Positions 2,086 to 43,811 of a stretch of 64,000 nucleotides of DNA are shown one piece after another. The notes beneath the pieces were generated by a model. The model made no database searches. It was not told where the DNA came from and was given only the letters and a program-made list of their open reading frames with translations. Position 1 is the stretch's first letter; each line of letters starts with the position of its first letter. Made by a program: the position numbers and the translations under genes. The DNA is from Streptococcus oralis (lineage in GTDB: Bacteria; Bacillota; Bacilli; Lactobacillales; Streptococcaceae): the NCBI RefSeq assembly GCF_022749195.1, contig NZ_CP094226.1, positions 1,204,001 to 1,268,000 of the forward strand, written 5' to 3'.

Positions 2086-3612
2086 ATGATAAAAATCAAC
2101 CATCTGACCATCACACAAAACAAAGATCTACGAGATTTTGTATCTGATTTAAGCATGACTATCCAAGACGGGGAAAAGGTTGCAATTATTGGTGAAGAAG
2201 GAAATGGCAAATCAACTTTGCTGCGAGCTTTAATGGGGGAAGCATTACCTGATTTTAGTATCAAGGGCGACATCCAGTCTGATCTTCAATCACTGGCCTA
2301 CATTCCTCAAAAGTTACCTGAGGAGCTAAAAAATAGGACTCTACACGATTACTTCTTTTTGGATTCTGCTGATTTAGACTACAGCATTCTTTATCGTTTG
2401 GCGGAGGAATTGCACTTTGATAGCGACCGTTTTGCTAGCGACCAAGAAATTGGCAGTCTATCAGGGGGCGAAGCTTTGAAAATTCAGCTCATTCACGAGT
2501 TAGCCAAACCTTTTGAGATTCTATTTTTAGATGAACCTTCAAATGACCTAGACCTTGAGACGGTTGATTGGCTAAAAAGGCAGATTCGAAAGATTAGGCA
2601 AACTGTTATTTTCATTTCCCATGATGAAGACTTTCTTTCTCAAACGGCTGATACTATTGTCCACTTGAGACTGGTCAAGCACCGAAAAGAAGCGGAAACG
2701 CTAGTCGAGCATTTAGACTATGATGGCTATAGTGAGCAGAGAAAGGCTAATTTTGCCAGACAAAGTCAGCAAGCTGCTAACGACCAGAGAGCCTATGATA
2801 AAACCATGGAAAAACATCGCCGAGTTAAGCAGAATGTAGAAAATGCTTTGCGAAATACTAAAAATGATGTTGCCGGGCGCCTATTGGCTAAAAAGATGAA
2901 AAATGTACTCTCTCAAGAAAAACGCTTTGAAAAGGAAGCCCAGTCCATGACCCAAAAGCCACTTGACGAGGAACAAATCCAACTTTTCTTTTCAGATATC
3001 CAACCATTACCGGCTTCTAAAGTCTTAATCCAACTGGAAAAGGAAAATTTATCCATTGGCGAACGCATTTTAGCTCAGAAATTACAACTAACGGTCCGTG
3101 GTCAAGATAAAATTGGTATTATCGGGCCTAATGGTGTTGGAAAATCGACTCTGTTATGCAAGTTACAACAACTCCTAAGCAACAAAAGAGAGATTTCGCT
3201 TGGTTTTATGCCACAAGATTACCACAAAAAACTGCAATTGAATTTATCTCCAGTAGCCTATCTCAGCCAAACAGGGCAAAAAGAGGAATTACAGAAAGTC
3301 CAATCTCACTTAGCCAGTCTCAATTTCAGTTATCCAGAGATGCACCACCAAATTCATTCTTTATCTGGTGGTCAACAAGGCAAACTGCTTCTGTTGGATT
3401 TAGTGTTGCGCAAACCAAACTTTCTCATTCTCGATGAGCCGACACGAAACTTTTCTCCCACTTCTCAACCCGAAATCAGAAAACTCTTTGCCTCTTATCC
3501 CGGCGGTCTGATCACTGTTTCGCATGACAGACGCTTCTTAAAAGAGGTCTGTACGAGTATCTATCGTTTGACAGAAAATGGTTTGGAAGTTTTTGATTTA
3601 CAAGATTTATAA
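2086..3612 (+). CDS. ABC-F family ATPase (ribosome-associated type)
   Basis: This 508-residue protein has two fused nucleotide-binding domains and no membrane segments, as in ABC-F proteins, which act on the ribosome, including antibiotic ribosome-protection factors. Domain 1 has Walker A GEEGNGKST (36-44), signature LSGGE and Walker B FLDEPSNDLD. A charged linker follows (HRRVKQNVENALRNTKNDV region). Domain 2 has Walker A GPNGVGKST and signature LSGGQ, but its Walker B continues LDEPTRNFSP instead of the usual LDEPTNHLD. I choose the ATG at 2086, which has AAAGGG 7 bases upstream, over an in-frame ATG at 2053 that abuts the leader terminator and has no ribosome site. The substrate or drug is unknown. 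Confidence 0.85.
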   Translation: MIKINHLTITQNKDLRDFVSDLSMTIQDGEKVAIIGEEGNGKSTLLRALMGEALPDFSIKGDIQSDLQSLAYIPQKLPEELKNRTLHDYFFLDSADLDYSILYRLAEELHFDSDRFASDQEIGSLSGGEALKIQLIHELAKPFEILFLDEPSNDLDLETVDWLKRQIRKIRQTVIFISHDEDFLSQTADTIVHLRLVKHRKEAETLVEHLDYDGYSEQRKANFARQSQQAANDQRAYDKTMEKHRRVKQNVENALRNTKNDVAGRLLAKKMKNVLSQEKRFEKEAQSMTQKPLDEEQIQLFFSDIQPLPASKVLIQLEKENLSIGERILAQKLQLTVRGQDKIGIIGPNGVGKSTLLCKLQQLLSNKREISLGFMPQDYHKKLQLNLSPVAYLSQTGQKEELQKVQSHLASLNFSYPEMHHQIHSLSGGQQGKLLLLDLVLRKPNFLILDEPTRNFSPTSQPEIRKLFASYPGGLITVSHDRRFLKEVCTSIYRLTENGLEVFDLQDL

Positions 3613-3625
3613 ATGTTGAACACAG

Positions 3626-3656
3626 CAAAAATCCAGAGAAGTTTCTCTGGATTTTG
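3626..3656. terminator. Bidirectional terminator, part of a direct repeat
   Basis: AAATCCAGAGAA pairs with TTCTCTGGATTT. It serves the ABC-F gene on the plus strand and the CPBP gene on the minus strand. A diverged copy lies at 4469-4499 downstream of htpX. Confidence 0.75.
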
Positions 3657-3657
3657 T

Positions 3658-3779
3658 TTACATCTGTTTCAAACGCTCAATTCGTTCTGAGATAGGTGGG
3701 TGGGTGTAAAATAGTTTTTGGAGTCCGCCACCTTTCTTGGGATCATTGATATAAAGTGGGCTGCTAGCATCGTCAACAT
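3658..3779 (-). pseudogene. htpX 3' fragment (duplicate)
   Basis: Read on the minus strand, this stretch encodes the last 40 or so HtpX residues, ending [19 protein letters not shown] and a stop, close to the true htpX end (ERLKHM) at 4499. It has no start and is cut at about 3780, just before the end of the CPBP gene. It is the residue of a duplication or recombination event that placed the CPBP gene beside htpX. Confidence 0.85.
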
Positions 3780-3791
3780 TCTAATGCAGTA

Positions 3792-4391
3792 TTATCTCAT
3801 ATACAAAAAGCAAAACGCAACCAGATTATTGAGGACATGCAAAAGAATGGAATTCCATAGGTTATCAGAAGTCTTATACCTTATCCCAAATGCAAATCCC
3901 ATACCTAAATAGGTGATAAAGCTAGGAATAGTATAGGGACCATGCAGATAAGCAAAAAGAAGCGATGTGGAAAACAAGCCAAAATATGTATTCTTAAATA
4001 CTATCCCCTGTAACATACCTCGCATAAAAATTTCTTCCGTGACAGGTGCCAAAACACAGAGATCCACAAAAAGTACAGACCATGAAAGTGATAAACTTTG
4101 CACAGCTTGAGTTGTGTCTGATTGGGTAGGGCCTAAAAAATTGACCAAAATATAAAATAGGAAAAGCAAGGCGTATGAAAGAAAACATTTTAAAATATCT
4201 TTTAGGCAGATTTTCCGAATGTGAAACAAGTCATACTTTTTTCCTACATATAAAAATAATGCAAGTTCAACAAGTGTAAAAAGGATTGATAGCGTTAATG
4301 AATTTATTCGCATGATTTTCTCTGCTATACTCAAATGAATTGGCATAAAAATCAAAATCAAGAAAAACGTCATCCAGCGCTTATACATCAT
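3792..4391 (-). CDS. CPBP family intramembrane glutamic endopeptidase
   Basis: This 199-residue, very hydrophobic protein of the CPBP (CAAX protease/bacteriocin-processing) family has the three family motifs: APVTEEIFMRG (Glu119, Glu120, Arg124), LLFAYLHG (Phe146, His150) and LLHVLNN (His185, Asn189). In streptococci and lactobacilli such genes often accompany bacteriocin loci (Abi proteins) or act in self-immunity; the role here is unknown. Two ATGs are adjacent, and the second (4388) sits better behind GAGGTG. The gene lies between two copies of the htpX 3' end and looks more AT-rich than htpX, so it was probably acquired. Confidence 0.85.
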   Translation of the reverse strand: MMYKRWMTFFLILIFMPIHLSIAEKIMRINSLTLSILFTLVELALFLYVGKKYDLFHIRKICLKDILKCFLSYALLFLFYILVNFLGPTQSDTTQAVQSLSLSWSVLFVDLCVLAPVTEEIFMRGMLQGIVFKNTYFGLFSTSLLFAYLHGPYTIPSFITYLGMGFAFGIRYKTSDNLWNSILLHVLNNLVAFCFLYMR

Positions 4392-4466
4392 TCACCTCAA
4401 TTATATAGAATTACATATATTATACTATTTTTTGGAGAGATAACAAGTTAAAAGCGAGATACTAAA

Positions 4467-4629
4467 AGCAAAAATCCAGAGACGACCTCTGGATTTTTTT
4501 ACATGTGTTTCAAGCGTTCGATTCGTTCTGAGATAGGTGGGTGGGTATAAAAGAGTTTTTGAAGCCCGCCACCTTTCTTAGGATTATTGATATAAAGAGC
4601 GCTGCTGGCATCGTCAACATGGTGATGCA
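4467..4629. repeat. Direct repeat, copy B (native htpX 3' end)
   Basis: This is the partner of 3623-3788 and contains the htpX terminator and the last codons of htpX. Recombination between the two copies would delete the CPBP gene. Confidence 0.85.
4469..4499 (-). terminator. htpX terminator
   Basis: AATCCAGAG pairs with CTCTGGATT and, on the minus strand, runs into T residues directly after the htpX stop codon. Confidence 0.75.
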
Positions 4630-5398
4630 TCGGCTCGCTATTCTCCAACTTACGCAAGGCATTGATCATCCCTTGAGGATTGCGAGTCAGCTCCACACTG
4701 GATGCATCCGCCAAAAATTCCCTCTGACGGGAAATGGCTAGTTGCACCAAGGTTGCTGCGAGAGGTGCTAGAACAATGGCTAAGAGAGAGATAACAAGCA
4801 TGATAATCTCCAAACCATTTCCATCGCGATCATTATCACTCCGTCTGCGACCTGCGCCACCCCACCACATCATCCGTCCTGCCATACTAGACAGAAGGGT
4901 AATGGCACTGGCAAGGGCAACAGCAATGGTCGAAATACGGATATCGTAGTTTCGGATATGACTGACCTCATGCCCCATAACAGCTTCCAGTTCCTCGCGA
5001 TTCATGATAGCCAGAAGGCCCGAAGTGGCTGCGACAGCTGCATTCTGCGGGTTTGAACCTGTTGCAAAGGCATTTAAAGAAGAATCCTCAATGATGAAAA
5101 CACGTGGCATGGGGATCTGAGCGACCATAGCCATATCTTCCACAACATGGTAGAGGTCTGGTGCTGTTTGCTCATCAACCTCACGCGCCCCATTCATAGA
5201 CATGACAATCTCTGTCGATTGAAAGATCATGGTCAGAGCGTAGATAAGACCAATAATCAAGGCAATAATCATGCCACCAAGACCTGAGCGCATGAAGAGA
5301 TAGCCAACCGCATAACCAACCAAGGCCAAGAGTAGGAAGAAAACCAGCAACAAAATCCAGGTTTTTCGTTTATTGCTCGCAATTTGATCAAACAACAT
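4499..5398 (-). CDS. htpX: HtpX membrane zinc metalloprotease
   Basis: This 299-residue M48-family protease takes part in membrane-protein quality control. The zinc motif is HEVSH (His143, Glu144, His147), with a further acidic stretch downstream ([10 protein letters not shown]). Two N-terminal membrane segments span about 13-35 and 42-62, and two more about 155-225. The ATG at 5398 gives [10 protein letters not shown], the usual streptococcal start, with GGTGA from the lemA end as ribosome site; an upstream in-frame GTG at 5407 would overlap lemA. One base separates it from lemA, so the two are co-translated. A duplicate of its 3' end lies at 3658-3779. Confidence 0.93.
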
Positions 5399-5399
5399 C

Positions 5400-5960
5400 T
5401 TAGTCACCTAAACCGCTAAAGTCAACTTTAGGAACTGCCTTTTCCTCTTCAGGTGTTTGAAGGAAGTCTGCAGCTTTAAAGCCAAATAGTCCTGCGATGA
5501 TGTTGCTTGGGAAACTTTCAAGTTTTACATTGTAGTTGCTGACAACACTGTTGTAGAGTTGGCGTGAGTAAGAAATTTTATTTTCTGTATTGGTCAACTC
5601 TTCTTGCAATTTGATAAAGTTAGCACTAGCTTTCAAGTCTGGGTAATTCTCTGCTACTGCAAAGATACCAGAAATCTGGCGGGTAAGGGCATCACTGGCC
5701 TTCATAGCTTCTGCCGGTGAAGTTGCTGCGGCTACTTGTCTACGAAGTTCTGTTACTTTTTCCAAGGTAGAACCTTCATATTTCGCATAGCCTTTGACTG
5801 TTTCAATCAAGTTTGGGAGGAGATCATTACGACGCTTCAACTGAACATCGATCTGGCTCCAAGCCTCCTTGGTCTGCATACGATTTTTAACCAAACCGTT
5901 ATAGCTAACAATCACAAAAATAACAATCAGAGCCAAAACTCCAAGAATAATCCAAGTCAT
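5400..5960 (-). CDS. lemA: LemA family protein
   Basis: This 186-residue LemA protein has one N-terminal membrane helix (about 3-20), then [33 protein letters not shown], the hallmark of the family, and a helical body thought to sit outside the membrane. LemA and HtpX are commonly encoded together in Firmicutes; the biochemical role of LemA is not established. It is first in the lemA-htpX operon and divergent from rsmG, with both promoters in 5961-6053. Confidence 0.9.
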
Positions 5961-6053
5961 AATCTTATTCCTTTCTGCTTTTAGATTACTACCAGTATAT
6001 CAAAATTTTAACGAATATGGTAAAATAAGATGATACTAGAGAAGGAAACTACT

Positions 6054-6767
6054 ATGAAACCAGAAACATTTTACAGCCTACTAGCTGAGCAAAATATTCC
6101 ACTTTCTGACCAGCAAAAGAACCAATTTGAACGGTATTTTGAACTCTTAGTCGAGTGGAATGAAAAGATTAACCTGACCGCTATTACAGATAAAGAAGAA
6201 GTTTATCTCAAACATTTTTATGATTCGATTGCCCCCATCCTGCAAGGCTTGATTTCAAATGAAACTATCAAACTTCTTGATATCGGGGCTGGGGCAGGAT
6301 TTCCTAGTCTGCCTATGAAAATTCTCTATCCACAGCTGGATGTGACCATCATTGATTCGCTCAATAAGCGCATCAACTTCCTCCAACTATTGGCTCAGGA
6401 GCTGGAGCTGGATAGTGTTCACTTCTACCATGGACGGGCAGAAGACTTTGCTCAAGACAAGAACTTCCGTGCCCAGTTTGATGTTGTAACTGCTCGTGCG
6501 GTTGCCCGCATGCAGGTCTTATCTGAATTGACTATCCCTTACCTTAAAGTTGGTGGCAAACTATTAGCACTCAAGGCCAGCAATGCTCCTGAGGAATTGC
6601 TAGAAGCCAAGAACGCTCTCAACCTCCTCTTTAGCAAAGTAGAGGAAAACCTCAGCTATGCCCTGCCAAATGGAGATCCGCGCTACATCACTGTAGTCGA
6701 AAAGAAAAAGGAAACACCTAACAAGTACCCAAGAAAGGCTGGCATGCCCAACAAACGCCCACTTTAA
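6054..6767 (+). CDS. rsmG: 16S rRNA (guanine-527-N7) methyltransferase RsmG
   Basis: This 237-residue SAM-dependent enzyme (GidB) methylates G527 of 16S rRNA; its loss gives low-level streptomycin resistance in other bacteria. The SAM-binding motif is [17 protein letters not shown] (about 71-87), followed by [10 protein letters not shown] and [11 protein letters not shown]. The ATG at 6054 ([18 protein letters not shown] upstream) is preferred over an in-frame ATG at 6030. The basic C-terminus ([21 protein letters not shown]) is typical of the family. An 11-bp hairpin without a T-run (6761-6792) follows the stop. Confidence 0.93.
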
Positions 6768-6802
6768 ACAATAGTGCACCCTTGTTTAAAGTTCAGAAAA
6801 CA

Positions 6803-7062
6803 ATTTACAAAATCAGCCTCGCTTTATTATTTCTAGGATCGGGAAAAATTCGTTTACAAAACGAACCTCGCTCTCGCATTTCCGGGCTCGGGAAAAAATG
6901 ATTTACAAAATCAACCTCGCTCTCGTATTTCTGGGCTCGGGAAAAATTCGTTTACAAAACGAACCTCGCTCTCGCATTTCCGGGCTCGGGAAAAAATGAT
7001 TTACAAAATCAACCTCGCTTTTTTGTTTCTCGGCTCGGGAAAAATTCGTTTACAAAACGAAT
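6803..7062. repeat. Tandem array of 49-bp units, alternating in two stem types
   Basis: The core tTTACAAAA recurs at 6803, 6852, 6901, 6950, 6999 and 7048, exactly 49 bases apart. Each core is a small palindrome, and the flanking stems alternate between two compensatory versions: TTCGTTT/AAACGAA and TGATTT/AAATCA. The true period is thus 98 bases. Between cores lies a conserved linker, acctcgctctcgcatttc followed by gggctcggg. The first unit is diverged and the last is partial. The array fills the rsmG-pyrP gap, and the last TTTACA is the -35 box of pyrP. Confidence 0.9.
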
Positions 7063-7077
7063 TTTTTCTGCTATACT
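7049..7077 (+). promoter_or_regulatory. pyrP promoter
   Basis: -35 TTTACA (7049-7054), supplied by the last copy of the 49-bp repeat, a 17-base spacer and extended -10 TGC-TATACT (7072-7077). Confidence 0.7.
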
Positions 7078-7083
7078 ATCACA

Positions 7084-7215
7084 AGCAAAGGTTTTTAATG
7101 TCATCCTGTGAGGTGACGAAGGCGCAGATTTATATAAATTTTTAAAAGATAGCTATTTTTTAAAAAGTCTTACTCTGAGGGCCTATTGCTGCAAAATAAT
7201 GGGCTCTTTTTTGGT
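7084..7215 (+). promoter_or_regulatory. PyrR-type attenuation leader of pyrP
   Basis: The leader contains a PyrR-binding-loop-like element, GTCATCCTGTGAGGTGACGA (about 7099-7118), and an intrinsic terminator with stem AGGGCCTATT (7178-7187) / AATGGGCTCT (7198-7207) and a T-run. In the known mechanism UMP-bound PyrR binds the loop and favours termination, so uracil uptake falls when pyrimidines are plentiful. Confidence 0.75.
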
Positions 7216-7234
7216 GCCCAAAAGTGAGGTTTTT

Positions 7235-8518
7235 ATGAAACAGGAATCAACTGTTGACTTGTTACTAGACGTTGATCAACGTCCTTCTGCTGGTAAAGGC
7301 ATTCTTCTAAGCTTCCAGCACGTGTTTGCTATGTTTGGTGCAACCATTCTCGTTCCCTTAATTTTGGGAATGCCCGTATCGGTTGCTCTCTTCGCTTCCG
7401 GTATTGGAACACTTATCTACATGATTTCTACTGGTTTTAAGGTTCCAGTTTATCTAGGTTCTTCATTCGCCTTTATCACGGCTATGTCTCTAGCCATGAA
7501 AGAAATGGGGGGCGATGTTTCTGCTGCTCAAACTGGAGTTATCTTGACTGGTTTGGTCTATGTCCTTGTAGCAGCAAGTGTTCGTTTTGCAGGTACGAAA
7601 TGGATTGACAAACTCTTGCCTCCAATCATTATCGGACCTATGATTATCGTTATCGGTCTTGGTCTTGCTGGTTCTGCTGTAACGAATGCTGGACTCGTAG
7701 CAGACGGAAACTGGAAAAGCGCCCTTGTAGCCGTTGTTACATTCTTGATTGCCGCCTTTATCAATACAAAAGGAAAAGGTTTCCTTCGTATCATTCCTTT
7801 CCTCTTTGCCATCATCGGTGGGTACATCTTCGCTATGATGCTTGGTTTGGTTGACTTTACCCCAGTCCTTCAAGCCAATTGGTTTGAAATTCCTGGTTTC
7901 TACTTGCCATTTAGTACAGGTGGAGCCTTTAAAGAGTACAACTTGTACTTCGGTCCTGAAACAATCGCCATCTTGCCAATCGCTATTGTAACCATTTCAG
8001 AACACATCGGTGACCACACAGTTTTAAGCCAAATCTGTGGCCGTCAATTCCTAAAAGAACCAGGACTTCACCGTACGCTTCTCGGTGACGGTATCGCGAC
8101 ATCTGTATCTGCCTTCCTCGGTGGACCAGCTAATACGACTTACGGCGAAAATACAGGAGTTATCGGGATGACTCGTATCGCTTCTGTCTCTGTTATCCGT
8201 AACGCGGCCTTCATCGCGATTGCTCTTAGCTTCCTAGGCAAGTTCACTGCCTTGATTTCAACCATTCCAAATGCTGTGCTTGGTGGAATGTCCATCCTTC
8301 TCTACGGAGTTATCGCCAGCAACGGTCTAAAAGTTTTGATTAAAGAGCGCGTTGACTTCAGTCAAATGCGTAACCTCATTATTGCTAGTGCCATGTTAGT
8401 ACTTGGACTTGGTGGAGCCATCCTCAAACTTGGGCCAGTTACACTTTCAGGTACTGCTCTATCAGCCTTGACAGGAATCATCTTGAACTTGATTTTGCCA
8501 CACGAAAATAAAGACTAA
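7235..8518 (+). CDS. pyrP: Uracil permease (NCS2 family)
   Basis: This 427-residue NCS2/UraA-type nucleobase symporter imports uracil. It has about 12-14 membrane segments, an N-terminal cytoplasmic LLDVDQRPSAGKGILLSFQHVFAMFGATILVP (the QH motif is typical), and the conserved ETIAILPIAIVTISEHIGDH and GGPANTTYGENTG segments that form the substrate site. The ATG at 7235 with GTGAGG upstream is the start; an in-frame ATG at 7199 lies inside the attenuator stem. It is monocistronic with a terminator directly downstream and is regulated by a PyrR-type leader. Confidence 0.92.
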   Translation: MKQESTVDLLLDVDQRPSAGKGILLSFQHVFAMFGATILVPLILGMPVSVALFASGIGTLIYMISTGFKVPVYLGSSFAFITAMSLAMKEMGGDVSAAQTGVILTGLVYVLVAASVRFAGTKWIDKLLPPIIIGPMIIVIGLGLAGSAVTNAGLVADGNWKSALVAVVTFLIAAFINTKGKGFLRIIPFLFAIIGGYIFAMMLGLVDFTPVLQANWFEIPGFYLPFSTGGAFKEYNLYFGPETIAILPIAIVTISEHIGDHTVLSQICGRQFLKEPGLHRTLLGDGIATSVSAFLGGPANTTYGENTGVIGMTRIASVSVIRNAAFIAIALSFLGKFTALISTIPNAVLGGMSILLYGVIASNGLKVLIKERVDFSQMRNLIIASAMLVLGLGGAILKLGPVTLSGTALSALTGIILNLILPHENKD

Positions 8519-8529
8519 TCATCTATACA

Positions 8530-8560
8530 CAAAAAATCCACTCGATTGAGTGGATTTTTT
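8530..8560. terminator. Bidirectional terminator pyrP / EamA gene
   Basis: AAAAAATCCACTC pairs with GAGTGGATTTTTT around a 4-base loop and serves both convergent genes. Confidence 0.85.
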
Positions 8561-8562
8561 AA

Positions 8563-9468
8563 TTACTTACTCTTTATTTCCAACAGTAAATCTTTCAATG
8601 AAATAATGGTCACGGCTAGTAAAATCATGGCCATACCGACAAAATCAATCGCATAAAACTGTTCCTTCATAATCAGAAAGGCAAAGAAAACGGCAGAAAT
8701 TGGTTCTATGGAAGCTAATAAACTAGACTTAACAGGGCCTATCAGACTGGCTCCTTTTAGGAAAGCTGTATAGGCAAAAACCGTTCCGATGATGATAATC
8801 CCAGCAAATGCAAAGAGAAAATCTAAGCTGGTTGGTATGCTGACTTGCAAAACTCCTGTGAAGGGAATAGCCACTACACCAGAAATAACCATACCGACAC
8901 CAATCACCAAAATACTGCCCCACTTCTTAATCAAAGTAATAGGAAGGATGATATAGAGGGCATAGGTCAAGGCCGAAAAGAGGCCCCAGAACAGACCTAG
9001 GGGTGTGACAGACAACTGGTCAACTTTACCGTGCGTCGCAATCAGAAAGGTGCCTCCTATAGCCAATCCAATCGAAAAAATCTCAGCCAGAGTAGGCGCC
9101 ACCTTGTCCTTCATACAAGTATAAACTAAAATCCCAACGGGGCATACATACTGGAGAACTGTCGCCGTTCCAGCATTGGTTTCCTGAATGGCAGAAAGAT
9201 AGGCAAACTGGTTTAAGAAAAGCCCGAACAAGGCAAATAACAGCAGAGATAAAAGGCTTTTTCTGTCCTTTAAAAAAGAAAGGAGTTTATCCTTTGAAGT
9301 CGCATAGGATAAGACTACCAGTGCCAGACCTGCAATGATAAGTCGTAAATTGATCAAGACTAAAGCAGAAATCCCGTGTGCCATCAGGTATTGACCACTG
9401 GTTCCAGACAAGCCCCAAGCAATCCCTGCCACTACTGTATACAGAGTTCCTTTTACAGTTTTTGACAT
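8563..9468 (-). CDS. EamA/DMT-family transporter
   Basis: This 301-residue membrane protein has about ten hydrophobic segments arranged as two EamA repeats (roughly 5-140 and 150-290), as in drug/metabolite transporters. Motifs include GIAWGLSGTSGQYLM near the start and LLASIEPISAVFFAFLIMKEQ near the end, the usual C-terminal EamA signature. The substrate cannot be told from sequence. It follows the serine hydrolase gene by 8 bases and is the last gene of the cppA operon, which ends at the shared terminator. Confidence 0.85.
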   Translation of the reverse strand: MSKTVKGTLYTVVAGIAWGLSGTSGQYLMAHGISALVLINLRLIIAGLALVVLSYATSKDKLLSFLKDRKSLLSLLLFALFGLFLNQFAYLSAIQETNAGTATVLQYVCPVGILVYTCMKDKVAPTLAEIFSIGLAIGGTFLIATHGKVDQLSVTPLGLFWGLFSALTYALYIILPITLIKKWGSILVIGVGMVISGVVAIPFTGVLQVSIPTSLDFLFAFAGIIIIGTVFAYTAFLKGASLIGPVKSSLLASIEPISAVFFAFLIMKEQFYAIDFVGMAMILLAVTIISLKDLLLEIKSK

Positions 9469-39442: not shown

Positions 39443-39475
39443 ATGATTTCCTATAAAGAGAAAGGAGCTGGTAGC

Positions 39476-40405
39476 TTGCCTCTTCATTCACGTTCTGAAC
39501 GGCTAATGGGAACAACTATCACGATTTCATTAGTAGATGAACAGGCTGATTGCCTACTTCAAGGAGCCTTTGATTTGCTCAAGGAGCTCGAATACCGCTT
39601 CAACGCCAATAGTCAAGAATCCGAACTGATGGAAATCAACTACCAGGCTGGAATCGCACCTGTTAAGGTTCATCCTGACCTGTTTGAACTGATTGCTCTT
39701 GGACTGGAGCATAGCCTAGCTCCGTCTAGCCATCTAAATATCAGTATTGGTCCCTTGATTCAAACCTGGCGAATCGGATTTGCAGATGCACGGCTTCCAG
39801 AGTTAGACGAAATCGAAGCTGTCTTGCCACTAGTTGACCCGCATTTTATCAAGTTAGATCCGACTAGCTCTACTGTCTATTTAGAGAAGAAAGGAATGAA
39901 GCTTGATTTAGGTTGCTTAGCCAAGGGCTATAGTGCAGATAAGGTTGCCCAGTATTTAAAAGCACACGGTGTCACCTCTGCCCTGATCAATCTCGGAGGA
40001 AATATCCTCACCATCGGAAACAATCAAGCCAAAGAAGGGAAAGCCTGGCAGATTGGGATTCAAGATCCGAGAAATCCTCGTGGCAATCATCTCCTAACCA
40101 TTCCTGCTTCTAACAAATCCGTTGTCACTTCAGGTATCTATGAACGCCACCTGACAGTAGATGGAAAAGACTATCACCATATCTTTGATAGTGAGACAGG
40201 ATTTCCTGTCGAAACCGATCTTGCTAGCCTGACGATTATCTCTGATAAATCCGTTGATGGTGAGATATGGACAACACGCCTTTTCGGAGAACGAAGCGCT
40301 TCTATCCTCTGGCAAGTCGAAAGTATAGATGGGATTGAAGCCATCCTCATCGACAAAGAGGGACGCCTTGCATGTTCTTCAGGCCTTCAAAATTGTATTA
40401 TGTAA
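39476..40405 (+). CDS. apbE: FAD:protein FMN transferase (ApbE family)
   Basis: This roughly 309-residue flavin transferase cleaves FAD and attaches FMN covalently to Ser/Thr in target proteins. Features: RLMGTTITISL at the N-terminus, LDLGCLAKGYSADKVAQYLKAHG, INLGGNILTIG, IQDPRNPRG, VTSGIYERHLTVDGKDYHHIFDSETGFPVETD and the Mg-binding region DKSVDGEIWTTRLFG. There is no signal peptide or lipobox, so it should work in the cytoplasm. I favour the TTG at 39476, which has AAAGGAG 8 bases upstream, over the in-frame ATG at 39443, which has no ribosome site. The FMN reductase that carries two ApbE target motifs lies two genes downstream in the same operon. Confidence 0.9.
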   Translation: MPLHSRSERLMGTTITISLVDEQADCLLQGAFDLLKELEYRFNANSQESELMEINYQAGIAPVKVHPDLFELIALGLEHSLAPSSHLNISIGPLIQTWRIGFADARLPELDEIEAVLPLVDPHFIKLDPTSSTVYLEKKGMKLDLGCLAKGYSADKVAQYLKAHGVTSALINLGGNILTIGNNQAKEGKAWQIGIQDPRNPRGNHLLTIPASNKSVVTSGIYERHLTVDGKDYHHIFDSETGFPVETDLASLTIISDKSVDGEIWTTRLFGERSASILWQVESIDGIEAILIDKEGRLACSSGLQNCIM

Positions 40406-40423
40406 AAAGAGAAAGGAAATCTC

Positions 40424-41029
40424 ATGCTAAAACTTATTGCCATTGTTGGAACGAACTCTAAACGTTCTACAAACCGCCAATTGCTCCAATACATGCAAAA
40501 ACACTTTGCGGATAAAGCTGAAATTGAACTCGTTGAAATCAAGGATATCCCTGTTTTCAACAAACCAGCAGATAAGCAACTTCCAGCTGAAATTCTTGAG
40601 ATTGCAGCTAAAATTGAAGAGGCTGATGGTGTGATTATCGGTACTCCTGAGTACGACCACTCTATCCCTGCGGTTTTGATGAGCGCTCTTGCTTGGCTAT
40701 CTTACGGTATCTACCCACTTTTGAACAAACCAATCATGATCACTGGTGCTTCCTATGGTACACTTGGTTCCTCTCGTGCCCAATTGCAGCTTCGTCAAAT
40801 CTTGAACGCTCCTGAAATTAAGGCAAATGTTCTACCAGATGAATTCTTGCTTTCTCACTCTCTTCAAGCATTTAACCCAAGTGGCGACTTGGTTGACCTT
40901 GATGTCATCAAGAAATTGGATGCCATCTTTGATGACTTCCGTATCTTTGTGAAGATTACTGAGAAATTGCGCAATGCACAAGAATTACTTCGCAAAGATG
41001 CAGAAGAATTTGACTGGGAAAATTTGTAA
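40424..41029 (+). CDS. NADPH-dependent FMN reductase family protein
   Basis: This 201-residue flavodoxin-like protein has KLIAIVGTNSKRSTNRQLLQYM (phosphate-binding loop), GVIIGTPEYDHSIPAVLMSALAWL (flavin-binding) and MITGASYGTLGSSRAQLQLR. It is a clear paralogue of the N-terminal part of the next gene, with which it is probably co-transcribed (17-base gap). It has no flavinylation tail. Likely substrates are flavins, quinones or nitro/azo compounds; the physiological one is unknown. Confidence 0.87.
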   Translation: MLKLIAIVGTNSKRSTNRQLLQYMQKHFADKAEIELVEIKDIPVFNKPADKQLPAEILEIAAKIEEADGVIIGTPEYDHSIPAVLMSALAWLSYGIYPLLNKPIMITGASYGTLGSSRAQLQLRQILNAPEIKANVLPDEFLLSHSLQAFNPSGDLVDLDVIKKLDAIFDDFRIFVKITEKLRNAQELLRKDAEEFDWENL

Positions 41030-41046
41030 GATAGGAGACCGAAAGA

Positions 41047-42291
41047 ATGAAATTTGTTGGACTTGTTGGATCAAACTACGATCAATCATATAACCGCAAA
41101 CTCTTGGAATTTATTCGTCGCAATTTCAAATTCAAATTTGAATTAGAAGTCCTTGAAATCGACGAAGTTCCAATGTTTAACCAAGACGAAAAATGGGACG
41201 AAAGCTTCCAATTGCGTTTCTTGTATAACAAGATTACACGTGCTGATGGTGTTATTATCGCTACTCCTGAGCACAACCACACTATCTCAGCTTCACTCAA
41301 ATCTGTACTCGAATGGCTTTCATACGAAGTTCATCCATTTGAAAACAAGCCTGTTATGATTGTGGGTGCATCATACTATGACCAAGGAACATCACGTGCC
41401 CAAGTTCACCTTCGTAAAATCCTTGATGCTCCAGGTGTTAATGCCTACACGCTTCCAGGTAACGAATTCCTTCTTGGTAAAGCCAAAGAAGCTTTTGATA
41501 ACAATGGAAACATCACCAACGAAGGAACTGTTAAATTCCTTGAAACTTGCTTAGATAACTTTGTAAAATACGTAGGAGTCGTTTCGAAATTGAAAAAACC
41601 AAAACCAATCGAACCAGAAGACTTGGATTGTGGAAAACCAATTGCTACAACCATTACAGAAGTTGATCCTGACGATCCAGAATGGGTAGAAAAAGTTGCA
41701 GCAATCACTGGAGCTGTTTCTGGTGATACCTATGTCAAATTGGACCACGGTATCTTGACAGTTAACCAAATTGATATGTTTTTGAAAGCTATGCCGTTTG
41801 AATTGACATACGCTGACGATAACAACCAATTCCTATACTACAACAACGCTCACCAAGATCCAGACACCATGTTTGCTAAACGTGTACCACCTCAATCAGG
41901 TAGCCGTATGTCGACTGTTCATGGTTCTCTCCCACCAGCACGTATGAAGAACGTAGAGTGGGTTATCGGAACACTTCGCAACGGAAACCAAGAATACGTT
42001 CGTACGATCGTTCCAGGTTCTCCTGCAGGTGTCATCAACACCCACAACTACCAAGCAATGTACTATCCTGATGGATCATACGCTGGTATCAATGAAATCG
42101 TCTTTAACTTCCAACCATGGCTTGACTGGTACCTAAAAGAGACTGGTCAACGTTTGGTGGGTGGTAGCGGACCATTTGCTCCTGCAGCTGGAGGTCATGG
42201 AGACGCCGATGCTACTTCTGGCGCTTCTGATTCAGGTGATGCTGGAGGCCACGGTGGTGACGCAGACGCTACATCTGGCGCAAGCAACTAA
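41047..42291 (+). CDS. FMN reductase-PAS fusion with two ApbE-type flavinylation motifs
   Basis: This 414-residue protein has three parts. Residues 1-185 are an NADPH-dependent FMN reductase domain (FVGLVGSNYDQSYNRKLLEFI, IIATPEHNHTISASLKSVLEWLSYE, GASYYDQGTSRAQVHLRKIL). Residues about 235-370 resemble the PAS domain of DUF438 proteins (LDHGILTVNQIDMFLKAMPFELTYADD...FLYYN, ending INEIVFNFQPWLDWYL). Residues 382-414 are a Gly/Ala/Asp/Ser tail with two exact copies of DADATSGAS. Within them D-A-T-S-G-A-S (388-394 and 407-413) fits the ApbE acceptor pattern D-x-x-S/T-G-A-S/T, so Ser394 and Ser413 may each carry covalent FMN. There is no signal peptide. Third gene of the apbE operon. Confidence 0.85.
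   Translation: MKFVGLVGSNYDQSYNRKLLEFIRRNFKFKFELEVLEIDEVPMFNQDEKWDESFQLRFLYNKITRADGVIIATPEHNHTISASLKSVLEWLSYEVHPFENKPVMIVGASYYDQGTSRAQVHLRKILDAPGVNAYTLPGNEFLLGKAKEAFDNNGNITNEGTVKFLETCLDNFVKYVGVVSKLKKPKPIEPEDLDCGKPIATTITEVDPDDPEWVEKVAAITGAVSGDTYVKLDHGILTVNQIDMFLKAMPFELTYADDNNQFLYYNNAHQDPDTMFAKRVPPQSGSRMSTVHGSLPPARMKNVEWVIGTLRNGNQEYVRTIVPGSPAGVINTHNYQAMYYPDGSYAGINEIVFNFQPWLDWYLKETGQRLVGGSGPFAPAAGGHGDADATSGASDSGDAGGHGGDADATSGASN
42208..42285 (+). other. Tandem flavinylation motifs in the reductase tail
   Basis: Codons 388-394 (42208-42228) and 407-413 (42265-42285) both encode DATSGAS. They sit in an otherwise disordered-looking tail 19 residues apart. Covalent flavinylation by the co-encoded ApbE is inferred from the motif. 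Confidence 0.6.
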
Positions 42292-42372: not shown

Positions 42373-42416
42373 TAAAGTTGTATCATAGAGGTAAGAAAAG
42401 TTGTGAGGTGCTAACT

Positions 42417-43811
42417 ATGTTTCACAAAGAAAAACCAGATTATCATCGCTGCCAATATGGCTTCTATACGATAGACGAATTGGTCCCAAGAGATCACTTT
42501 CTTCGCCAAGTGGAATCAGAGGTTGATTTTGACTTTATCTATGACTTAGTTGAAGATACCTATAGTCCAGATAATGGTCGTCCTAGTCTCGATCCCGTCA
42601 TGTTAGTCAAAATTCCTTTGATTCAATGCTTTTATGGCATTCGCTCCATGCGCCAAACCATTAAAGACATTGAAGTAAACGTAGCCTATCGTTGGTTTCT
42701 TGGACTAAGCTTGGATGACAAGGTGCCTCATTTTACCACATATGGAAAGAATTACAGTCGTCGCTTTCAAGATAAAGAACTGATTACCGAGATATTTTTA
42801 CAAGTACTCCATCAAGCTTTATTTGCTGGTTTAATGGATCCTTCGGAAATATTTGTGGATGGTACCCATATCAAAGCTGCAGCTAACAGTCACAAGTATC
42901 ATAAGGAAATGGTTGCCCAACAAGCTAAATTTATGAGTGAGCAATTGGAAGTTGAGATTGATGTAGATAGGAGAAAACACGAAAAAAGTCCTTAAAGCCC
43001 GCAAAAGAAAGCGAGGCTAAGGAAAAGAAAATCTCAAGGACAGATCCTGAGAGTGGTTGGTTCCACAAGGGGGAACACAAGGAAGTATTTGCCTATTCTG
43101 CCCAAGTAGCGTGTGATAAGCATGGTTGGGCCTTGGCTTATAGTGTTGAAGCAGGAAATGTACACGACAGTCAGGCTTTCCCTGCCCTTTTTTCAAAGTT
43201 AGAAGCTTTCTCCCCACGCTACATTATTGCGGAATCAGGCTATAAGACCCCAGCTATTGCCCATTATTTATTACAGCGAAACATTATCCCTGTCTTCCCC
43301 TATACCCGCCCCAAGGGAGTAAGGGGGAACTTAAGACCCGGTGATTTTGTTTATGATGCCTTCTATGACTGTTACCTCTGTCCAGAGAACCAAGTATTAG
43401 CCTATCGCACGACGACCCGAGCAGGCTATCGTGAGTATAAGAGTGATCCAAAAGTATGTATCGCCTGTCCCCTATTATCCGTTTGTACGCAGAGCCAGAA
43501 TCAGCAGAAAGTCATCACAAGACATGTATGGAAAGACGAACTTGAATATTGTGAAGAGATTCGACACCAAAGAGGGATGAAGGAGCTTTATAAGAAGCGC
43601 AAAGAAACAATTGAGCGACTCTTTGGGACTTGCCAAAGAATACCACAACCTTCGTTATACAAGAGAGAAAGGCAAGTCCAAGATGGAAGATAAGATTGGG
43701 CTTACTTTAGCGTGTTTGAATCTCAAAAAACTAGTAAAAATGAGGGTGGACAAGCCTTTTTATTTTGTTCAAATGACCATTATTCTATCAAAAGATGGAA
43801 TTTTAGCCTGA
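42417..43811 (+). pseudogene. IS1182-family transposase, double frameshift
   Basis: The full frame would encode about 464 residues. The N-terminal DUF772 part (YHRCQYGFYTIDELVPRDHFLRQV, RPSLDPVMLVKIPLIQCFYGIRSMRQT, FVDGTHIKAAAN) is intact up to 42995. Then one A is missing from an A-run near 42988, and the frame continues as KKSLKPAKES...WFHKGEHKEVFAYSAQV...IIAESGYKTPAI. An extra A near 43631, after IERLFG, returns it to the first frame (LAKEYHNLRYTREKGKSKMEDKIGLTLACLNLKKL). The DDE core is therefore split, and the element should be immobile on its own. I could not fix its terminal inverted repeats. Confidence 0.85.

Follow-up and report, generated by a model that had tools for sequence, protein, structure and literature searches.

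A three-gene operon of Streptococcus oralis encoding a predicted ApbE substrate with FMN reductase and PAS domains and a repeat tail

Introduction

Flavinylation by ApbE has mostly been discussed for proteins located outside the cytosol, where the ApbE of Escherichia coli itself acts. The acceptor motif of the enzyme, published as D-x-x-[S/T]-G-A-[S/T] (PMC12052999), is found in NqrC, RnfG and other FMN_bind proteins. FMN_red proteins with C-terminal copies of the motif, encoded beside apbE, have also been described, and two such proteins of Lactococcus were flavinylated, the modification being lost in alanine variants (Huang 2024, PMC11334425). As to the source of ApbE in those experiments, the Results describe co-expression of the cognate apbE while the Methods describe the addition of Listeria ApbE (PMC11334425).

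A second group of described systems consists of paired FMN reductases. Neither FRedA nor FRedB of L. johnsonii binds FMN alone, and the heterodimer has two FMN sites with a Kd of 1.96 uM; it uses NADH as the donor, reduces FMN (Km 20 uM), forms H2O2 from O2 and did not reduce the quinones tried (Valladares 2015, PMC4500961). For gene deletion in this system the same paper cites Hertzberger 2014. The PAS partner of FRedA/FRedB, LjPAS, is fused to an FMN reductase in other lactic acid bacteria and was read as a regulator (PMC4500961). In L. plantarum, the hydroxycinnamate reductase HcrA/HcrB is likewise an FMN reductase-type pair, a proposed heterodimer dependent on NADH and FMN (PMC10295242).

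Here we describe a locus of Streptococcus oralis that resembles these systems in different respects. The initial annotation of its largest gene allowed that the architecture might have been described before, and indeed most parts are in print: the flavinylation of FMN_red tails (PMC11334425), and the two-reductase heterodimer with its PAS partner and the fusions (PMC4500961). What we have not found in print is that the tail accompanies the PAS module and that a stand-alone gene of the LjPAS type encodes three ApbE motifs. Among the matches listed in open-licence PMC full text, no paper connects ApbE with LjPAS or with the PAS tail, and PMC4500961 contains none of the words ApbE, covalent and flavinyl.

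Organization of the operon

The window (the whole stretch of 64,000 nucleotides analysed, from contig NZ_CP094226.1) contains three closely spaced genes on the forward strand at 39443-42291. The first, apbE (39443..40405), encodes an FAD:protein FMN transferase of 320 amino acids (Pfam ApbE, E 5.5e-76), whose closest solved chain is the FAD:protein FMN transferase 7esa (E 6.6e-80) and which is the single ApbE of the source genome (1.88 Mb, one contig). The second (40424..41029) encodes a 201-aa FMN_red protein (Pfam E 4.3e-35) without a flavinylation motif, a probable partner subunit of the FRed type. The third gene (41047..42291) encodes a protein of 414 amino acids, 100% identical to proteins of three S. 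oralis genomes. According to the translation and Pfam, it comprises an FMN_red (PF03358) domain at residues 1-147 (41047..41487, E 1.9e-33), a PAS_10 domain at residues 242-355 (41770..42111, E 7.8e-21) and a tail; the PAS_10 region has a PDB relative in 2qkp (query residues 231-360, E 8.7e-10). The combination of a reductase with a PAS-like domain and the presence of apbE in the operon, both put forward in the initial annotation, are thereby borne out; the second FMN_red gene had been omitted from it.

As read at the outset, the tail of the 414-aa translation has two exact copies of DADATSGAS, at residues 386-394 (42202..42228) and 405-413 (42259..42285), again on the forward strand. Both fit the published ApbE motif in its strict form, and the last serine of each copy, Ser394 and Ser413 as assigned before, is the FMN acceptor predicted from the motif definition and from conservation. 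The acceptor motif is shared with NqrC, RnfG and other FMN_bind proteins, but a protein of the NqrC/RnfG kind was ruled out, FMN_bind (PF04205) being absent from the 414-aa chain; at E up to 10 it was found nowhere in the source genome. The 414-aa protein further differs from NqrC and RnfG in having no predicted export signal and in carrying its motifs on a repeat tail. Since none of the three operon proteins has a strongly hydrophobic N-terminal segment, all three are taken as cytosolic, as predicted from hydropathy.

The locus shares with FRedA/FRedB-LjPAS two consecutive FMN reductase genes and a PAS_10 protein (PMC4500961); in the window, however, one of the reductases carries the PAS part on its own chain and apbE lies within the operon. 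Similarly to the 414-aa protein, the Lactococcus proteins combine FMN_red with one to two motifs in a C-terminal extension, and apbE is nearby (PMC11334425). The phrase 'PAS domain' does not appear in the text of that paper, whose two tested proteins may nonetheless carry PAS, and no partner reductase is mentioned in the sections consulted. With HcrA/HcrB the locus has the pair of FMN reductase-type proteins in common (PMC10295242), but the 414-aa protein has PAS and tail where the presumed HcrB relatives have FMN_bind and FAD_binding_2, the FAD_binding_2 reductase domain being absent from it. Identity with FlaR, the studied pneumococcal 'flavin reductase', was ruled out by the size of the latter (17.2 kDa).

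The upstream neighbour of the operon is a divergent gene for an NADH oxidase-like flavoprotein. Downstream, on the operon strand, a transposase gene lies in two pieces at 42378-43693 (a DUF772 transposase domain, then a DDE domain) and is apparently a broken insertion sequence. A phage origin is not supported, as the gene of the 414-aa protein had no megablast match among phage records.

Conservation of the tail motif

Relatives of the 414-aa protein were the last 100 of the best 150 matches listed in Lactobacillales, taken with 5-kb flanks where contigs allowed. They are 49-88% identical to the window protein, which together with them forms a set of 101 proteins; one relative (L152) was read from a shorter open frame of 328 aa. 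The counts exclude 56 nearly identical loci of Streptococcus (L021-L076), each of which has two strict motifs. A relaxed motif was defined as D-x-x-[ST]-[GSA]-A-[ST] and a strict one by Gly at position 5.

At least two relaxed motifs are present in 96 of the 101 proteins (two in 43, three in 40, four in 13), and at least one strict motif in 75. The initial annotation had named motif-less tails in homologues that keep apbE as evidence against flavinylation; the remaining five proteins (L080, L103, L117, L164 and L176) retain one motif and/or degenerate copies. The spacers between the motifs vary while the motifs persist. Many copies are not fresh duplications, since the motif residues shared between copies within one gene have the same codon in only 519 of 1087 cases.

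Chance accounts poorly for these numbers. The 95 tails that could be anchored (six of the 101 proteins lack the anchor and were omitted) contain 243 relaxed motifs, compared with a mean of 1.9 and a maximum of 9 when each tail was shuffled 500 times, and 145 strict motifs, compared with a mean of 0.5 and a maximum of 4. Neither form occurs in the 34,212 residues of the protein bodies. On the DNA of the source genome the strict pattern was matched at 19 places, versus 8 for a reversed control pattern; within open frames of 100 codons or more, the motif itself is found twice in this tail, once in a 481-codon frame and nowhere else. Judged from these sequences, the tail is conserved and under selection.

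A repeat that is left unflavinylated and serves solubility, protein contacts or some other purpose would fit the shortness of the motif and the Gly-, Ala-, Ser- and Asp-rich composition of the tail, and flavinylation of the window protein is itself a prediction. Such a role is nevertheless very improbable given the 243 motifs against 1.9 in shuffled tails, the co-occurrence with ApbE described below and the fact that Lactococcus FMN_red tails are demonstrably flavinylated (PMC11334425). ApbE flavinylation of the 414-aa tail is instead considered very likely because of the motif, the operon and the co-occurrence, and the original proposal of an ApbE substrate with two sites very probably holds.

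Some features of the motif count against a simple picture. Ser occupies position 5 in 97 of the 243 motifs, which speaks against uniformity, and 231 of the 243 end in Ser, a poorer ApbE substrate than Thr (PMC12052999); both points weigh against a flavin carrier. The protein of Limosilactobacillus fermentum CP033372.1 has four DAxASAS copies with Ala at motif position 4, perhaps reflecting a shifted ApbE specificity.

Association with ApbE and genomic distribution

The initial annotation had raised the question of whether apbE is always adjacent to reductase-PAS proteins with this tail. The tail proved conserved, but constant adjacency did not: apbE lies within the fetched flanks of 80 of the 100 loci, at up to 1.2 kb and on the same strand in 75. 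The 20 loci without apbE in the fetched flanks belong to genomes each of which has at least one ApbE.

In Streptococcus, co-occurrence was assessed in the 211 of 247 genus-sample genomes examined for all three features; where gene matches were weak or interrupted, as in 24 genomes, the full gene was scored as lacking. The full gene is present in 171 of the 211, every one of which has ApbE, and in 114 of these 171 there is a single ApbE and FMN_bind has no match. Thirty of the 40 genomes without the full gene have FMN_bind together with ApbE. The ten that lack both the full gene and FMN_bind are divided equally into five without and five with ApbE; in one of the latter an interrupted gene copy with its tail is kept, and the other four (G045, G063, G169 and G215) have ApbE with neither the full gene nor FMN_bind, which counts against the flavin carrier proposed below.

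The genes are also found on plasmids, 108 of the 445 plasmid records with a match covering at least 80% of the 414-aa protein. Plasmids from three genera carry the complete set of three genes, among them L. paracasei plasmid pWX3 and, with a Crp/Fnr-type regulator gene upstream, L. lactis plasmid pGdh442. Another type of regulator gene, HTH_3 + TPR, lies upstream on the same strand in 47 of the 100 relative loci (e.g. L114, 7842-8714). It is also upstream (4114-4974) in the locus of Enterococcus faecium plasmid NZ_CP027502.1 (L240), which is typed as conjugative and in which the regulator and the three-gene operon are situated between two IS1216 transposase genes (3287-8959).

In S. agalactiae, three adjacent genes with matching annotations drop jointly with temperature (-2.09, -2.11 and -2.12), and the product of the third was detected in the proteome (PMC6224512); by annotation and gene order they would be orthologues of the operon. 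In 12 loci of one lactobacillus genus (g18, L347-L358) no motif protein is adjacent; on sequence reading, apbE adjoins a gene for a phosphatase-like protein in two of them (L347 and L355), and a motif-less FMN_red gene is nearby in five.

Probable partner reductase and electron donor

A homologue of the 201-aa reductase is encoded within 300 bp on the same strand in all 100 loci, and none of these has the motif. Residues aligned with the FMN contacts of FRed are conserved in the partner proteins (Glu76 and Ser110 in 101/101, Phe45 in 100/101) as well as in proteins of the 414-aa type (Phe44, Glu75 and Ser109, invariant in the 38 aligned). Because the FMN of the characterised relatives binds only to the two-reductase heterodimer (PMC4500961), the enzyme probably includes the 201-aa neighbour as well. 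Of the earlier proposal of one polypeptide holding a non-covalent and two covalent FMNs, the two tail sites very probably remain, and on the same analogy the single chain would give way to a heterodimer. NADPH, named there as the donor, is an annotation only; the characterised relatives use NADH (PMC4500961), which is the more likely donor here.

Architecture variants and the PAS module

The FMN_red-PAS-tail variant was detected in 175 of 395 order-sample genomes at E up to 1e-80, and the listed full-length matches from a class sample (299 genomes) all fall within the same order. An FMN_red protein with a motif tail and no PAS occurs in Lactococcus-like and a few related genomes; apbE lies next to it in most loci whose sequence extends far enough, and PAS is absent in the six scanned. 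Proteins of about 810 aa with the order FMN_red-FMN_bind-FAD_binding_2 (domains from one scanned) adjoin a reductase of the 201-aa type and may be HcrB relatives. Finally, in two genomes of one genus the PAS-tail part stands alone, as a protein of about 245 aa that has three motifs and lacks FMN_red (one scanned). In a tree of the PAS part, the stand-alone form is placed inside the clade of fused proteins with a support of 99/99, in an analysis with long branches and a bootstrap not fully settled; this nesting makes loss of the reductase, with retention of the tail, the most likely origin of the stand-alone form.

The primers published for LjPAS fit, with 0 and 1 mismatches, the separate PAS-tail gene of one of these genomes (G302), and that of the other (G309) with 2 mismatches at the reverse primer, which spans the last tail motif. 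In view of this match, LjPAS very probably carries the identical three-motif tail end. The tail thus stays with the PAS part where PAS is a separate protein. We tentatively propose, at a little under even odds, that the tail belongs to the PAS module and that PAS-tail is the covalent flavin carrier of a two-subunit NADH:FMN reductase, fused to one subunit in most of the lactic acid bacteria that possess it, split in the L. johnsonii group and misread as a regulator since it was made without ApbE. Free FMN in the FRedA/FRedB assays would then be a stand-in for tethered FMN, and the whole a widespread soluble system of multi-flavin electron delivery in the cytosol.

PAS domains often bind ligands, and the tail FMN could alternatively reside in or near the PAS domain as a redox or oxygen sensor controlling reductase assembly, the flavin being the missing ligand of LjPAS. 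LjPAS was made in E. coli with a strain list that includes no added apbE, and this unmodified protein slowed formation of the active heterodimer (PMC4500961). Its transcript varies with aeration, although the abstract speaks of anaerobic repression and the Results of a 3.07-fold drop on aeration (PMC4500961). A regulatory role would explain the effect on assembly, which counts against a carrier; so does the turnover of FRedA/FRedB with free FMN and no PAS protein (PMC4500961). A sensor is still quite unlikely: LjPAS had no effect on the ready-formed heterodimer (PMC4500961), two to four motifs per chain exceed what a single sensor needs, and the Lactococcus-like proteins retain motif tails in the absence of a PAS domain.

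Proposed mechanism

With a probability of roughly two in three, we regard the operon, by analogy to FRedA/FRedB, as encoding a cytosolic NADH:FMN oxidoreductase that feeds tethered FMN carriers. The 201-aa reductase would pair with the FMN_red domain of its 414-aa neighbour in a heterodimer with two exchangeable FMNs, as in L. johnsonii, and the co-encoded ApbE would move FMN from FAD onto Ser394 and Ser413 behind the PAS domain. The tethered FMNs would take electrons, as free FMN does with FRedA/FRedB in vitro, and pass them on; the PAS domain may dock or gate the arm. The relay role of the tail flavins is inferred. That the tethered FMNs are the natural acceptors is argued by the larger number of tail sites than of pockets per chain, by the tail of the stand-alone PAS protein, which has no reductase domain, and by the lack of a motif tail on the partner reductase.

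For the Lactococcus FMN_red proteins a different view has been held, namely that the tail FMN is the cofactor of the reductase itself, covalently leashed in its normal pocket (Huang 2024, PMC11334425). AlphaFold models place the tail near the flavin site (PMC11334425), and a leash would be useful to an enzyme that binds FMN as weakly as FRedA/FRedB (PMC4500961). Applied to the operon described here, this is unlikely: nearly all chains have at least two motifs for their one FMN_red domain, and on the stand-alone PAS-tail protein, whose three motifs are accompanied by no FMN_red, a leash would have to act in trans.

In the carrier mechanism, electrons may finally reach either O2, the acceptor in L. 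johnsonii, or some partner enzyme. Fumarate reduction as the general purpose is not supported, a fumarase match being present in the flanks of only 3 of the 100 loci; FAD_binding_2 matches in the flanks number two, both weak (25% identity). In L. fermentum CP033372.1 (L360, 676-5834), fumarase and a 464-aa FAD_binding_2 protein are encoded divergently from the reductase pair, and this fumarate reductase-like gene is a hint at an acceptor to be taken as a lead only.

Implications

In many streptococci and lactobacilli, the cytosolic ApbE seems to work chiefly on a single soluble protein, whose arm offers two to four sites for flavin. If this is true, a widespread and hardly studied operon gains a job, and a natural multi-flavin swinging arm would be at hand. 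It would also cast the H2O2-forming NADH:FMN reductase known from probiotic lactobacilli, with its PAS 'regulator', in a new light, the analysis suggesting that the lactobacillus protein taken for a regulator is a flavin carrier.
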